64,000 nt of DNA from Asaccharospora irregularis DSM 2635 (GTDB lineage: Bacteria; Bacillota; Clostridia; Peptostreptococcales; Peptostreptococcaceae), in assembly GCF_900129815.1 (NCBI RefSeq), contig NZ_FQWX01000005.1, positions 1 through 64,000 of the forward strand. Reading direction: 5' to 3'. Within the stretch, counting starts at the first letter, position 1, and every line of letters starts with the position of its first letter. The notes under the pieces were generated by a model. That model had not been told where the DNA came from. It saw only the letters and a program-made list of their open reading frames with translations, and did no database searches. The position numbers and the translations under genes were made by a program. This document shows positions 4,084-8,299 of the stretch, piece by piece.

Positions 4084-4668
4084 TTAAACCCTCCTAATAT
4101 TTTTTATAATCCCTAAAACTAACATTATAAAAATCCAAAACAGTGAGCTTCCTGCATAAAATGCATAATTATGCAAACTGTTTTTTGTTAGAGCTACTAA
4201 GATGAAAATAACAATTATGCTAGATATTAATCTTGCCATTTTTTTATACTTCTTTTTTTCACCCTCATTTAAAGGGTTATTCCTATGTTCTACTGGCGAT
4301 AAGCTATAAATACCTGCATAGCTTATAAATGTATATATCCCTAAAAATATTGGAGATATACTCGCTACTAAATACTTATCTGTAAAAACTGTAACTAAAA
4401 ACATTCCCAAAAACGTAAGTGAGCATCTTTTATAATTTTCTGCATGGTAACCACCTGCAAATTGTCTTACAGGACAGTAACAAGTTAAAAATATTATCGT
4501 ATGTATTATTTTATTACATAATATACCAGTTGCAATTATCATTATTGAGTTAAATATAAATGAAATCAAAACTTCAAATCCGTACGCATATACATCGTAC
4601 TCACTACTATCAATTTCTTTATTCAAAGCTAAGAAAGATGTTATTTTTTGGGCACACGATTTAAACAT
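4084..4668 (-). CDS. agrB: AgrB, AgrD-processing membrane peptidase
   Basis: Accessory gene regulator B of 194 residues, the usual length. It is an integral membrane cysteine endopeptidase that cuts the AgrD tail and forms the thiolactone. The catalytic pair H75 and C82 stands in the family motif VRQFAGGYHAENYKRC. Several hydrophobic segments surround it. The start has a TAGGAGG site. It lies 78 bases after agrC and directly before agrD. The upstream gap carries paired 9-bp direct repeats (4734-4766) of the type bound by LytTR regulators, so agrBD probably has its own autoinduced promoter. Confidence 0.93.
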   Translation of the reverse strand: MFKSCAQKITSFLALNKEIDSSEYDVYAYGFEVLISFIFNSIMIIATGILCNKIIHTIIFLTCYCPVRQFAGGYHAENYKRCSLTFLGMFLVTVFTDKYLVASISPIFLGIYTFISYAGIYSLSPVEHRNNPLNEGEKKKYKKMARLISSIIVIFILVALTKNSLHNYAFYAGSSLFWIFIMLVLGIIKNIRRV

Positions 4669-4733
4669 TACTACCTCCTAAAGTTTTTACAATTTAAATG
4701 TAGCATACTTAACTTATTTATGCAATTGCTCAA

Positions 4734-4766
4734 ACATAACTGGACGTTATTCATACATAACTGGAC
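4734..4766 (-). promoter_or_regulatory. AgrA-type (LytTR) direct repeats upstream of agrBD
   Basis: Read on the minus strand, CCAGTTATG occurs twice with a 12-base spacer, a 21-bp period. A 9-bp repeat spaced by 12 is the arrangement known for AgrA/LytTR binding sites. A weak TTGAGC-N20-TATGCT follows before agrB; long spacers are typical of activator-dependent agr promoters. One repeat overlaps the very end of agrC. Confidence 0.65.
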
Positions 4767-6084
4767 AAATATTAACATTTATTCCTGGAATAATTATTAC
4801 TAATGCAAATTTATTATCTGTAAAATTTATATTTACCTGCCCATCATATCTTTCTACTGTTTGTTCTATATTCTTTATGCCAATACCGTGAATGTCCTTG
4901 TCTTTTTTATTTGTTAGTATTACATTATTGACTTTTAATATTTTATTAACCTTGCTATTTTCAATTTTTATCACACAGAACTTATTTACATACGTCACCT
5001 TTATAAGTATCCACTTCTTAACTCCTACATCTTTAATTTTATCACAAGCCTGAATAGAATTATCTAATGCATTTGAAAATATAGTACATATATCAGTCAT
5101 ATCTATAAAATCTATTTTTGAAAAATCTATATACGTCTCCAAATGAATACCTTTTTCTTTGCAAATTTCATACTTTTCATTTAAAATAATATCTAGAATT
5201 CTATTTCCTGTATTAAAAAAATCCCCTATCGTATTTAACTTAATATTTATATTCTCAATATACCTCTTTATATCATCAGAATCACTTAAGTTAGAAATAC
5301 AAATCACATGATTTTTCATGTCATGATACAATTTTTTAACCTTCTCCTGGTTATTTTCTATCTTCATATAGTAATTATATTCCATATTAACTTTTTCTCT
5401 AATAAGCTTATTCTCTAACTGCAACTTATTATTTTTCATAACTTTCCCAACTATTGCTAATATAGACATACTAGATAATAATAGTAAAAAGAAAATCATC
5501 ATAAGCATCATATTACTAGACATACTATTAGAGTTCTTTATACCATAGCTAAAAATTACTAGTATACTAAAAATATTTGTACAAATAGGAAGCCCCACAT
5601 ATAAAAAGTCTTTCTTTCCTATTTCTCCATATAACTTTATATACTTAAAAAATACCATTCCTATTAATAAAAGAATCTTTGAAGTCAAAACAGCCTCTAA
5701 CCTGTATATATTATACTCCAACAATATACTTATTTCTGATATATCATTTATAAATAGAACAACACTCATACTTAAAGCTTCTATAACTATTAACATCATC
5801 CAAAACGCCAAAGGAACAATTATAGCCTTAAATAAATTTATTTTGTAATTAATCTTGTAAAATCCTATAGTCAAAATTATAGAAATTATAACCCTATAAT
5901 TTGGAAGTATATTTAAAACCTTTATGGATATTGCCACCAACATTACAAAGTAAAAGCCTGTATGTCTTATCTTTCTCGATGTTTTTTGCTCACTTATTTC
6001 ACCTAATAAAATATATAGTACTATCCACTCTAACAGTAGAACAAGTAGATCTAGGGTGCTCCAAAAAATATTATTTTCTAACAT
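4747..6084 (-). CDS. agrC: AgrC-like sensor histidine kinase
   Basis: Receptor kinase for the Agr peptide, 445 residues. The first about 215 residues hold six or so membrane helices. The kinase core follows: H254 in KLYHDMKNHV, the N box around FSNALDNSIQAC (N338, N342) and the G box HGIGIKNIEQ (399-407), which is the GHKL type used by peptide-sensing kinases. It overlaps the response regulator gene by 7 bases, so the two are co-translated. The signal is presumably the product of agrD just downstream. The C terminus overlaps one copy of the LytTR-like repeats. Confidence 0.9.
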   Translation of the reverse strand: MLENNIFWSTLDLLVLLLEWIVLYILLGEISEQKTSRKIRHTGFYFVMLVAISIKVLNILPNYRVIISIILTIGFYKINYKINLFKAIIVPLAFWMMLIVIEALSMSVVLFINDISEISILLEYNIYRLEAVLTSKILLLIGMVFFKYIKLYGEIGKKDFLYVGLPICTNIFSILVIFSYGIKNSNSMSSNMMLMMIFFLLLLSSMSILAIVGKVMKNNKLQLENKLIREKVNMEYNYYMKIENNQEKVKKLYHDMKNHVICISNLSDSDDIKRYIENINIKLNTIGDFFNTGNRILDIILNEKYEICKEKGIHLETYIDFSKIDFIDMTDICTIFSNALDNSIQACDKIKDVGVKKWILIKVTYVNKFCVIKIENSKVNKILKVNNVILTNKKDKDIHGIGIKNIEQTVERYDGQVNINFTDNKFALVIIIPGINVNICPVMYE

Positions 6085-6791
6085 ATTACCTCTCCTAAAT
6101 AACTTGCCAACTCTCTTTTAAGGTCCTTTACCCTATATTTACTTACAGGAATTTGAATATCATCTATATATGCTACGTTTTTTATAAGTGATTGTATCTT
6201 AGTTATATTTATTAAAAAACTATTATGACATCTAAAGAATCTTTTGTTTTTAAGTTGTTTTTCAATATCATTGATTCCTATTTTTAAATTGTAAGACTTA
6301 TTTTCTTCATATATAGTTATCTCTCTTTTATCTGTCTCTATATACAGAATTGAATTTAAGTCTAATTTAATCATATAACCCTTATTATCAACAAATAGGA
6401 CGTTTTCTATCTTACTTATTATCCCAGAAACACACGAGTCTAAATGCTCAGATAGTGTTTCGTAGGAAATCGGTTTCAGCAAGTACCTATATGCTCTAAC
6501 TTCATACCCTTTTTGCACGTATTCTGATACAGCCGTTATAAACAGTATTTCCACCTTATTATCAAATTTTCTTATCTGTCTGGATGCTTCCATTCCAGTT
6601 AACTTATCCATTTGAATATCTAAAAATAAAATATCTAAAGTTTCAGGATATTTCTCAAGAAGCTCCTCCCCTGATGAAAATTCATAAATATTAAAGGATA
6701 TATCCTTTAATTTTAGAAACTTTTTAACAGAGTTAACCAAAAATTCTCTTTGTAATAAATCATCCTCACAAATTCCTATATGTAGTAACAT
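6078..6791 (-). CDS. agrA: AgrA-like response regulator (REC-LytTR)
   Basis: Response regulator of 237 residues with an N-terminal receiver (acidic cluster E9 D10 D11, phospho-acceptor D58 in LFLDIQMD) and a C-terminal LytTR DNA-binding domain (about 135-235, with FFRCHNSFLINITKI). LytTR proteins bind 9-bp direct repeats, and such repeats lie just before agrB. It is the first gene of the agr operon (agrA-agrC-agrB-agrD order, all leftward), with a GGAGG site before the ATG. Named agrA for locus context. As a family member alone it could be any LytTR regulator. Confidence 0.88.
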   Translation of the reverse strand: MLLHIGICEDDLLQREFLVNSVKKFLKLKDISFNIYEFSSGEELLEKYPETLDILFLDIQMDKLTGMEASRQIRKFDNKVEILFITAVSEYVQKGYEVRAYRYLLKPISYETLSEHLDSCVSGIISKIENVLFVDNKGYMIKLDLNSILYIETDKREITIYEENKSYNLKIGINDIEKQLKNKRFFRCHNSFLINITKIQSLIKNVAYIDDIQIPVSKYRVKDLKRELASYLGEVIC

Positions 6792-6856
6792 TCCTAACCT
6801 CCATTAAAAAACTCTTTCTACAAACTCAAGTAGACTTTTATACCTATTTTACCACA

Positions 6857-6896
6857 AATAAAGCCATATTACCTAAATGGTATACATGACTTTATT
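6857..6896 (-). terminator. probable terminator after the antiporter gene
   Basis: AATAAAGCCAT and ATGACTTTATT form an imperfect stem 35 bases after the antiporter stop, followed on the minus strand by a short T-rich stretch. Confidence 0.45.
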
Positions 6897-6929
6897 TATT
6901 TTAGATTATAATCCAAATTAAATTATAAT

Positions 6930-8102
6930 CTATTGCAAAAGTTTTTTGTAGGTTATGTCTATAAAAAAGGCACCAAGAGGGGCAGTTACTAAGATTGATA
7001 AAACAGCAACAGTCAATACAATTTTTCCACATGGCAATCCCATAGAAAGCGGTATTGCTCCTATAGCAGCTTGTACAGTTGCCTTTGGTGTATATGCAAT
7101 CATACAGAATATGCGCTCTTTTATAGATAGATCACTTTTAATTAAGCAACAATAAACACCTATCATTCTAAATATTAAAACTATAAATATAAGAATAACC
7201 GCTGCTGAACCTGCAGAAATAGCATAATTTATATCTACAGTAGCTCCTACTAAAACAAATAAAACTACCTCTGCTCCTATCCATAGCTCGGAAAATTTTA
7301 TTGAAATACTCTTAGCTAATTTACTATCTCTTTTTTGTAAAGCTACCCCTATACTCATTATTGCAATCAGGCCTGATATAGGAACAATTCCTTTTAATTT
7401 ATCTTCTAGAGCGACTAATAGAAAAGATACACTCAACAGTATTATTACTTTCATGGTATCATTTATGTTTATACGTTTGAAAAATAATACCAAACATCCT
7501 CCCAAAACAATCCCGGCCAAAATACCGATTATTATTGATACTGGTATTTGAGCAAAACTCATCGCCGACATTTTTTGTCCCTGTGCTAACCCTATAAATG
7601 ATGTGAAAAGTACAATTACAAAAACATCATCTACAGATGCTCCTGCCATTATAAGTTGAGGAATACTCTTATCTGTTCCGCATTTTTTTTCTATTAAATT
7701 CAACATTCTCGGAACTATTACCGCAGGAGAAACAGCTGCAACAACAGCTCCCATTATAGCAGCATCTAGTGTTGAAATCCCAAGCAATTTTGGAGCTATC
7801 ATAACCATTGCCAATATTTCAAAACAAGCTGGTAAAAAACACATTAAAATAGCAGCTCTACCAACCTTTTTCAAATCTCCAAAGTCTAATGCAAGACCCG
7901 CTCTTGTTAAAATTATTATGAGTGCAAGCTTACGTAAATCAGTAGAAATGGCTAAAATAGATCCATCAAGTATATTAAATACATATGGACCAATTATAAT
8001 ACCGGTAAGTATCATTCCCAGTAATCTTGGTAATCTAAATTTATTAAAAATTGATCCTACCAATATACCAATCAAAAAAATATAGGCTAAACTTGTTAAC
8101 AT
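6930..8102 (-). CDS. cation/proton antiporter (CPA family)
   Basis: Membrane antiporter of 390 residues, about eleven to twelve helices, lacking the C-terminal TrkA-N or USP domains of larger Kef/CPA2 proteins. Family landmarks include an N-terminal LPRLLGMILTGIIIGPYV and the conserved acidic pair region GASVDDVFVIVLF. It should exchange Na+ or K+ for protons. The leader (8171-8264) resembles a fluoride riboswitch ending in a terminator, and a strong promoter starts that leader. This suggests induction by fluoride. Antiporters of this kind are a known minor class of fluoride-riboswitch targets. The start has an AGGAGG site. Confidence 0.85.
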   Translation of the reverse strand: MLTSLAYIFLIGILVGSIFNKFRLPRLLGMILTGIIIGPYVFNILDGSILAISTDLRKLALIIILTRAGLALDFGDLKKVGRAAILMCFLPACFEILAMVMIAPKLLGISTLDAAIMGAVVAAVSPAVIVPRMLNLIEKKCGTDKSIPQLIMAGASVDDVFVIVLFTSFIGLAQGQKMSAMSFAQIPVSIIIGILAGIVLGGCLVLFFKRININDTMKVIILLSVSFLLVALEDKLKGIVPISGLIAIMSIGVALQKRDSKLAKSISIKFSELWIGAEVVLFVLVGATVDINYAISAGSAAVILIFIVLIFRMIGVYCCLIKSDLSIKERIFCMIAYTPKATVQAAIGAIPLSMGLPCGKIVLTVAVLSILVTAPLGAFFIDITYKKLLQ

Positions 8103-8170
8103 CTCAAAATCCTCCTGTAATTTATATTTATTTTGAGTTAATATTCTCCTTTTATGTCCCTATAAAACAC

Positions 8171-8218
8171 AAAAAAAGCTGATAACTCTGCCTTTAATAA
8201 ATGCAGAAGTCATCAGCT
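8171..8218 (-). terminator. regulated terminator in the antiporter leader
   Basis: On the minus strand AGCTGATGACTTCTGC pairs with GCAGAGTTATCAGCT (two mismatches) and runs into seven T, about 70 bases before the antiporter start. Its 5' arm overlaps the 3' strand of the aptamer pseudoknot, giving a ready on/off switch. Confidence 0.85.
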
Positions 8219-8264
8219 TAATAAGCGTTTTTGGTAAATACCACGGGAGAACTTCATTCCCTAT
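8204..8264 (-). ncRNA. fluoride riboswitch (crcB motif) aptamer
   Basis: Read 5' to 3' on the minus strand: stem GGGA/UCCC with loop AUGAAGUU, a small hairpin (GGUAUUUACC), the linker AAAAAC, stem GCUU/AAGC, then UGAUGACUUCU. Loop GAAGU can pair with ACUUC as the pseudoknot. This follows the known fluoride aptamer order (stem, AUGNNGNN loop, AAAC, stem, UGAUG plus the pseudoknot strand). One deviation is the base closing the first stem, A instead of the usual G. Fluoride binding would hold ACUUC away from the terminator and turn the antiporter on. Confidence 0.7.
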
Positions 8265-8270
8265 TTATAT

Positions 8271-8299
8271 ATAATAATCAGATAAATAATAAATGTCAA
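8271..8299 (-). promoter_or_regulatory. sigma-A promoter of the riboswitch-antiporter transcript
   Basis: TTGACA (8299-8294), 17 bases, TATTAT (8276-8271). The predicted start is near 8264, exactly at the first base of the aptamer. The promoter sits in the 30 bases after the panC stop. Confidence 0.8.

Follow-up and report, generated by a model that had tools for sequence, protein, structure and literature searches.

A fluoride riboswitch of a clostridial bacterium controls a single gene, and this gene encodes a cation:proton antiporter of the NHA/SLC9B group. The genome carries neither of the known fluoride exporters, Fluc/CrcB and CLC-F, and across Clostridia the antiporter and Fluc tend to exclude each other. 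On the strength of exporter absence together with Fluc exclusion, the antiporter probably stands in for a fluoride exporter. An association of fluoride switches with downstream Na+/H+ antiporters was already known (PMC11139923, PMC11477304), and such antiporters have been read as accessories for pH and ion balance (PMC11139923). A survey places Fluc or CLC-F in over 85% of bacterial strains, describes the strains with neither mainly as symbionts with reduced genomes, and reports that the two exporters exclude each other (PMC11139923). No report of switch-linked antiporters instead of exporters was found in the open-access literature searched. The riboswitch and the kind of target are not new; what appears new is the genomic pattern, in which switch and antiporter occur without exporters.

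The features of the locus are listed in Table 1, with positions counted in the window, i.e., the whole 64-kb stretch of DNA that was analysed.

Table 1. Features of the antiporter locus and its leader, ordered from the promoter to the gene.
Feature	Position	Strand	Basis or detail
Sigma-70-type promoter TTGACA-17-TATTAT	8271..8299	(-)	Consensus scan, 11/12 matches
Fluoride riboswitch aptamer RF01734	8197..8270	(-)	48.6 bits
Extra hairpin UGGU-AUUU-ACCA, between first and second stems	8232..8243	(-)	Covariation, 21 aptamers
Pseudoknot 3' strand ACUUC	8206..8210	(-)	Partner GAAGU at 8251-8255; within terminator 5' arm
Intrinsic terminator (stem 8219-8176, U run 8175-8169)	8169..8219	(-)	Hairpin folded alone -21.7 kcal/mol, z -5.3
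NHA/SLC9B-type cation:proton antiporter P0001, 390 aa	6930..8102	(-)	PF00999, E 1.6e-40

A first-pass annotation of this DNA had described a perfectly spaced promoter, a leader resembling the fluoride aptamer, and a last aptamer strand that overlaps the 5' arm of a strong terminator. All three hold. The promoter ranks first among the promoter-like sites of the window in the consensus scan. The covariance search that the annotation had called for places the leader well above the family threshold (gathering score 34 bits; E 2e-10 with the whole window searched), and the aptamer is the sole Rfam match in the window. A low-threshold Rfam search of positions 6700-7300 returned chance matches only; because the antiporter gene lies on the minus strand, its leader is at the opposite end. 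The terminator overlaps the 3' strands of the aptamer. Both the pseudoknot strand and the 3' strand of the second stem fall within its 5' arm, AAGCUGAUGACUUCUGC, and the ligand-bound aptamer and the terminator should therefore be mutually exclusive. The same ON-switch layout is known from crcB RNAs (PMC2864571). The fold of the whole leader has a z score of -6.8, which no shuffle matched, and an AGGAGG ribosome-binding site precedes the antiporter gene. By sequence and structure the leader is an authentic fluoride riboswitch, and it is predicted to bind fluoride.

We consider it very improbable that the leader merely resembles a fluoride aptamer and responds to something else or to nothing. 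The aptamer folded alone does no better than its shuffles (z 0.01) in a model without pseudoknots, which would fit such a look-alike. Against it stand the covariance score over 64 kb, the covariation of the stems, and the retention of the aptamer upstream of orthologues from other families. A chance resemblance is ruled out by the score and this conservation.

The extra small hairpin between the stems, which had also been pointed out, is real. In the 21 related aptamers, those found in front of antiporters from the same clade, changes on both sides are found at 4/4 of its pairs and 90.5% of cells are paired. The pseudoknot that joins loop 1 to the 3' strand is paired in 95.2% of cells of the same set. 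The A at the closing position of the first stem is there as described, but it is nothing unusual and forms a plain A-U pair (AU in 20/21 aptamers, GC in 1/21). When the copies are placed on the protein tree, aptamer length goes with antiporter clade, being 72-92 nt in the clade found here and 58-67 nt in the other. The extra hairpin is inherited along with one antiporter clade. Hence switch and gene were for the most part inherited as a single unit.

The annotation had named a cation/proton antiporter as the target, and the protein comparisons agree with this. The nearest solved proteins by sequence are human and bison NHA2/SLC9B2, and the predicted fold (structure model pLDDT 81.5) is likewise nearest to NHA2, which takes ranks 1-5 with TM scores of 0.83-0.85. 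The protein has the features of the NHA/SLC9B group: a Na_H_Exchanger domain, an NhaA-type fold, a DD pair on TM5, and equivalents of E215 and R432. In a hand-counted pairwise alignment with NHA2, E95 is opposite E215 and R312 is opposite R432. The cation site is strongly conserved among relatives (D158 in 76/76, D159 in 74/76, and E95 in 76/76), and R312 is invariant in an alignment of 18 sequences. This combination of E215- and R432-type residues is a mark of the mammalian NHA proteins, a group regarded as electroneutral (PMC6181914). We do not claim electrogenic transport from the DD motif, and the E95/R312 pair fits the electroneutral group (PMC6181914). The cation-site residues are intact, and this antiporter would by default be expected to exchange Na+ for H+ at 1:1. 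A 1:1 Na+/H+ exchanger operates in either direction, as set by the gradients.

The antiporter is the sole gene controlled by this switch, and its upstream neighbours are pantothenate genes. An exporter co-transcribed with it is ruled out, as the genes downstream encode a LytTR response regulator, a sensor kinase, and AgrB. These belong to an agr-type quorum-sensing locus (4084-6791, minus strand), in which the sensor kinase has a GHKL domain. Elsewhere in the genome (2.62 Mb, 98.9% complete) there is no second fluoride switch. The genome also gave no match to PF02537, the Fluc/CrcB family, in a search that was positive in 10/14 control genomes. Its only CLC reads GSGIP, GREGP, and GIFFP at the sites where CLC-F proteins read GNNLI/GMGLI, GREGT/V, and GEVTP (PMC11139923), and it thus lacks the CLC-F signatures. 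A known exporter hidden in this genome is therefore ruled out: PF02537 is absent and the sole CLC is ClcA-type.

The arrangement recurs in the class, for which 323 clostridial genomes from 192 genera were sampled evenly. The antiporter subfamily is found in 55 of these genomes and in 47 of the genera, and 47 of its 59 copies begin 34-341 nt behind a fluoride switch on the same strand. Genomes with the antiporter directly behind the switch make up 46 of the 77 that bear a switch (60%), and the statement of the first-pass annotation that CrcB or CLC-F is the target of most fluoride switches fails for this class. On the protein tree, unlinked antiporters are scattered among linked ones. The switch linkage therefore looks ancestral for the subfamily.

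Known exporters are scarce beside these antiporters. Fluc is present in 1/55 antiporter genomes vs 68/268 others (Fisher p 1.6e-5, a value inflated by shared ancestry). Kinship was handled in the co-occurrence statistics by genus count only, and shared ancestry inflates them. Counting each genus once, and scoring it as having both genes only if they occur in the same genome, gives p 4e-6, whereas p is 0.08 if both genes are credited to a genus even when different species carry them (7 genera then score as "both"). The exclusion acts at the level of the genome, with Fluc species and antiporter species found within the same genus. No recognised fluoride exporter is present in 32-43 of the 46 switch-linked genomes. 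The lower figure counts any CLC match as an exporter and so takes genomes without Fluc and without any CLC-F-like match; the upper takes genomes without Fluc and without a signature-bearing CLC, with one genome of partial signatures (G363) counted as having an exporter. The CLC profile cut-off alone was rejected as an exporter test for being too loose. CLC matches in antiporter genomes mostly fail the CLC-F signatures, and the result is therefore given as a range. Several antiporter genomes carry a CLC subtype reading GNDL[IV], GREGA, and GEVIP, near the CLC-F signatures but failing them (loci L115-L119 in G204, G247, G340, G348, and G259). Another group has a fluoride-switch match, in some cases below the cut-off, without Fluc, a CLC-F-like match, or the antiporter (G078, G080, G143, G147, G175, G177, G242, G246, and G255). 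These genomes are a place to seek further fluoride-defence genes.

The first-pass annotation had offered ion/pH compensation or a different export route as readings, and this choice becomes sharper with the lack of known exporters in the host genome and in many of its relatives. Could the antiporter itself export fluoride by means of its NHA fold, for instance together with Na+ or in exchange for H+? Fluc and CLC-F would then be joined by a third class of exporter. Its replacement of exporters in most switch-linked genomes speaks for this, as do the apparently ancestral switch linkage and the exclusion of Fluc, which resembles the mutual exclusion of Fluc and CLC-F (PMC11139923). The protein nevertheless retains all cation-site residues of NHA2, and no anion-site feature was found in it. 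We know of no precedent for halide transport in the NHA antiporter family, and we regard direct export as unlikely. Because the cation-site residues are kept, cation/proton exchange is ranked first and direct fluoride export second.

The arrangement also recurs in the host's own family. In 71 family genomes, homologues of the antiporter fall into 39 strong (>170 bits) and 50 weak (<67 bits) ones, and 31/39 of the strong homologues lie directly behind a fluoride switch, compared with 0/50 of the weak paralogues. Among the eight unlinked strong copies, one comes after a switch and then a CLC (G003), and in another a CBS-domain gene separates switch and antiporter (G035). A metagenome-assembled genome has a flavodoxin-like reading frame that runs into the antiporter at the switch terminator (L035:5617-7179); the aptamer is lost there and the 3' arm of the terminator is still present, reflecting either recombination or an assembly chimera. 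Switch and antiporter occur without Fluc or CLC-F in 20 family genomes, or 21 with G019, whose CLC fails the signatures. Antiporter and CLC-F occur together in eight, G019 being left out. In one genus of four species, CLC-F is intact in the first (G061), a fragment with four stops in the second (G062), and gone from the other two (G063 and G064), while the antiporter is retained in all four. That CLC-F decays here while the antiporter stays counts in favour of the stand-in role.

The published interpretation would instead have the antiporter assist in pH and ion balance as an accessory (PMC11139923). Fluoride itself would then be handled by an unrecognised exporter encoded at another locus. 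This alternative is favoured by genomes that have the antiporter together with CLC-F, such as G003 and G061, and by C. difficile, where the antiporter shares one operon with a CLC (PMC11477304). It is hard to square with the host genome, which lacks Fluc, CLC-F, and any further fluoride switch, and exclusion with Fluc is unexpected for an accessory. As an account of this locus we find it rather improbable. The genomes that hold both genes do show that the antiporter can also be an accessory, and this counts against the stand-in reading as a general rule.

The pairing reaches beyond the class. In Cetobacterium somerae and Ilyobacter polytropus (Fusobacteriota), and in Acetoanaerobium noterae, a fluoride switch lies about 40-100 nt upstream of the antiporter (96-100% query coverage). 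In Peptoclostridium acidaminophilum the order is fluoride switch, CBS-domain gene, antiporter (L141:2320-4143). Fusobacteria are listed among the groups without fluoride exporters (PMC11139923). Pieces of the gene also occur on mobile DNA. Nearly 800 plasmid records, mostly of Klebsiella and E. coli, carry a truncated gene of a close antiporter relative. In most of the 797 records the fragment is the C-terminal part, covering query residues 207-390 or less at 58-66% identity. In the one plasmid record that was opened (NZ_CP095654.1, L140:5016-5564), the fragment lies between IS26 and rmtB and no fluoride switch is left. An unverified "Bacteriophage sp." scaffold from human stool (MT837274.1, L143:5356-6654), which may well be bacterial rather than phage DNA, also carries a fluoride switch together with an antiporter of 56% identity.

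Taken together, the locus may work as a transcriptional fluoride ON switch whose antiporter is the main fluoride defence through cation/proton exchange, a model to which we give about an even chance. From the leader anatomy and the known behaviour of RF01734, the leader would form the terminator when fluoride is absent, and transcription would end at about position 8170. When fluoride is present, pseudoknot and second stem would sequester the 5' arm of the terminator and the antiporter gene would be transcribed. Exporter absence and the exclusion pattern suggest that the antiporter serves as the main fluoride-defence gene of the cell, replacing Fluc or CLC-F. In what is most likely its mode of action, HF would enter and dissociate, and the induced Na+/H+ exchange would reset cytoplasmic pH and cation balance. 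The net proton flux could run either way, outward to clear the acid load or inward to let F- leave as HF. Pumping protons out relieves the acid load of HF and increases the trapping of F-. Letting protons in lowers the pH difference, and F- leaves as HF, only to equilibrium. It is not obvious that ordinary Na+/H+ exchange would lower the fluoride level of the cytoplasm in the way an exporter does, and this weighs against the exchange model. Since neither direction equals an exporter, the exporter-free genomes leave room for direct fluoride transport.

More broadly, switch-linked NHA-type antiporters might be primary fluoride-resistance transporters of a third class that evolved independently. 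In many Clostridia, and perhaps also in Fusobacteria, they would have taken the place of Fluc and CLC-F, whether they export fluoride directly or use cation/proton exchange to drive HF from the cell. We advance this tentatively and rate its chances somewhat below even. Many clostridial genomes of ordinary size without Fluc or CLC-F keep a fluoride switch before one antiporter subfamily. If the antiporter alone confers resistance, the exporter gap is filled, the widespread "cation:proton antiporter" annotation gains a function, and a clean test of cation/proton exchange vs a weak-acid toxin becomes available.

The system can be compared with four known ones. Its leader shares with the RF01734 fluoride riboswitch (crcB motif) the consensus, two stems, pseudoknot, terminator overlap, and a promoter of its own, and differs in the additional covarying hairpin, which is an insert in the Rfam model. 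Fluc/CrcB and CLC-F are the usual products of fluoride-switch genes and likely serve the same physiological task as the antiporter; their folds are unrelated to that of the antiporter, whose gene belongs to neither family. NHA2/SLC9B2, a Na+(Li+)/H+ exchanger, is the best solved relative and has the acidic pair and the E95/E215 and R312/R432 positions in common with the protein described here, which is bacterial, shorter at both ends, controlled by a fluoride switch, and about 30% identical. C. difficile has an operon of a CLC and an NhaP-type antiporter behind its single fluoride switch (PMC11477304). The switch class is the same, and the family genome with the same gene order as C. difficile (G003: switch, CLC, antiporter) encodes an antiporter 66% identical to the one described here, which in contrast stands alone behind its switch in a genome without CLC-F.
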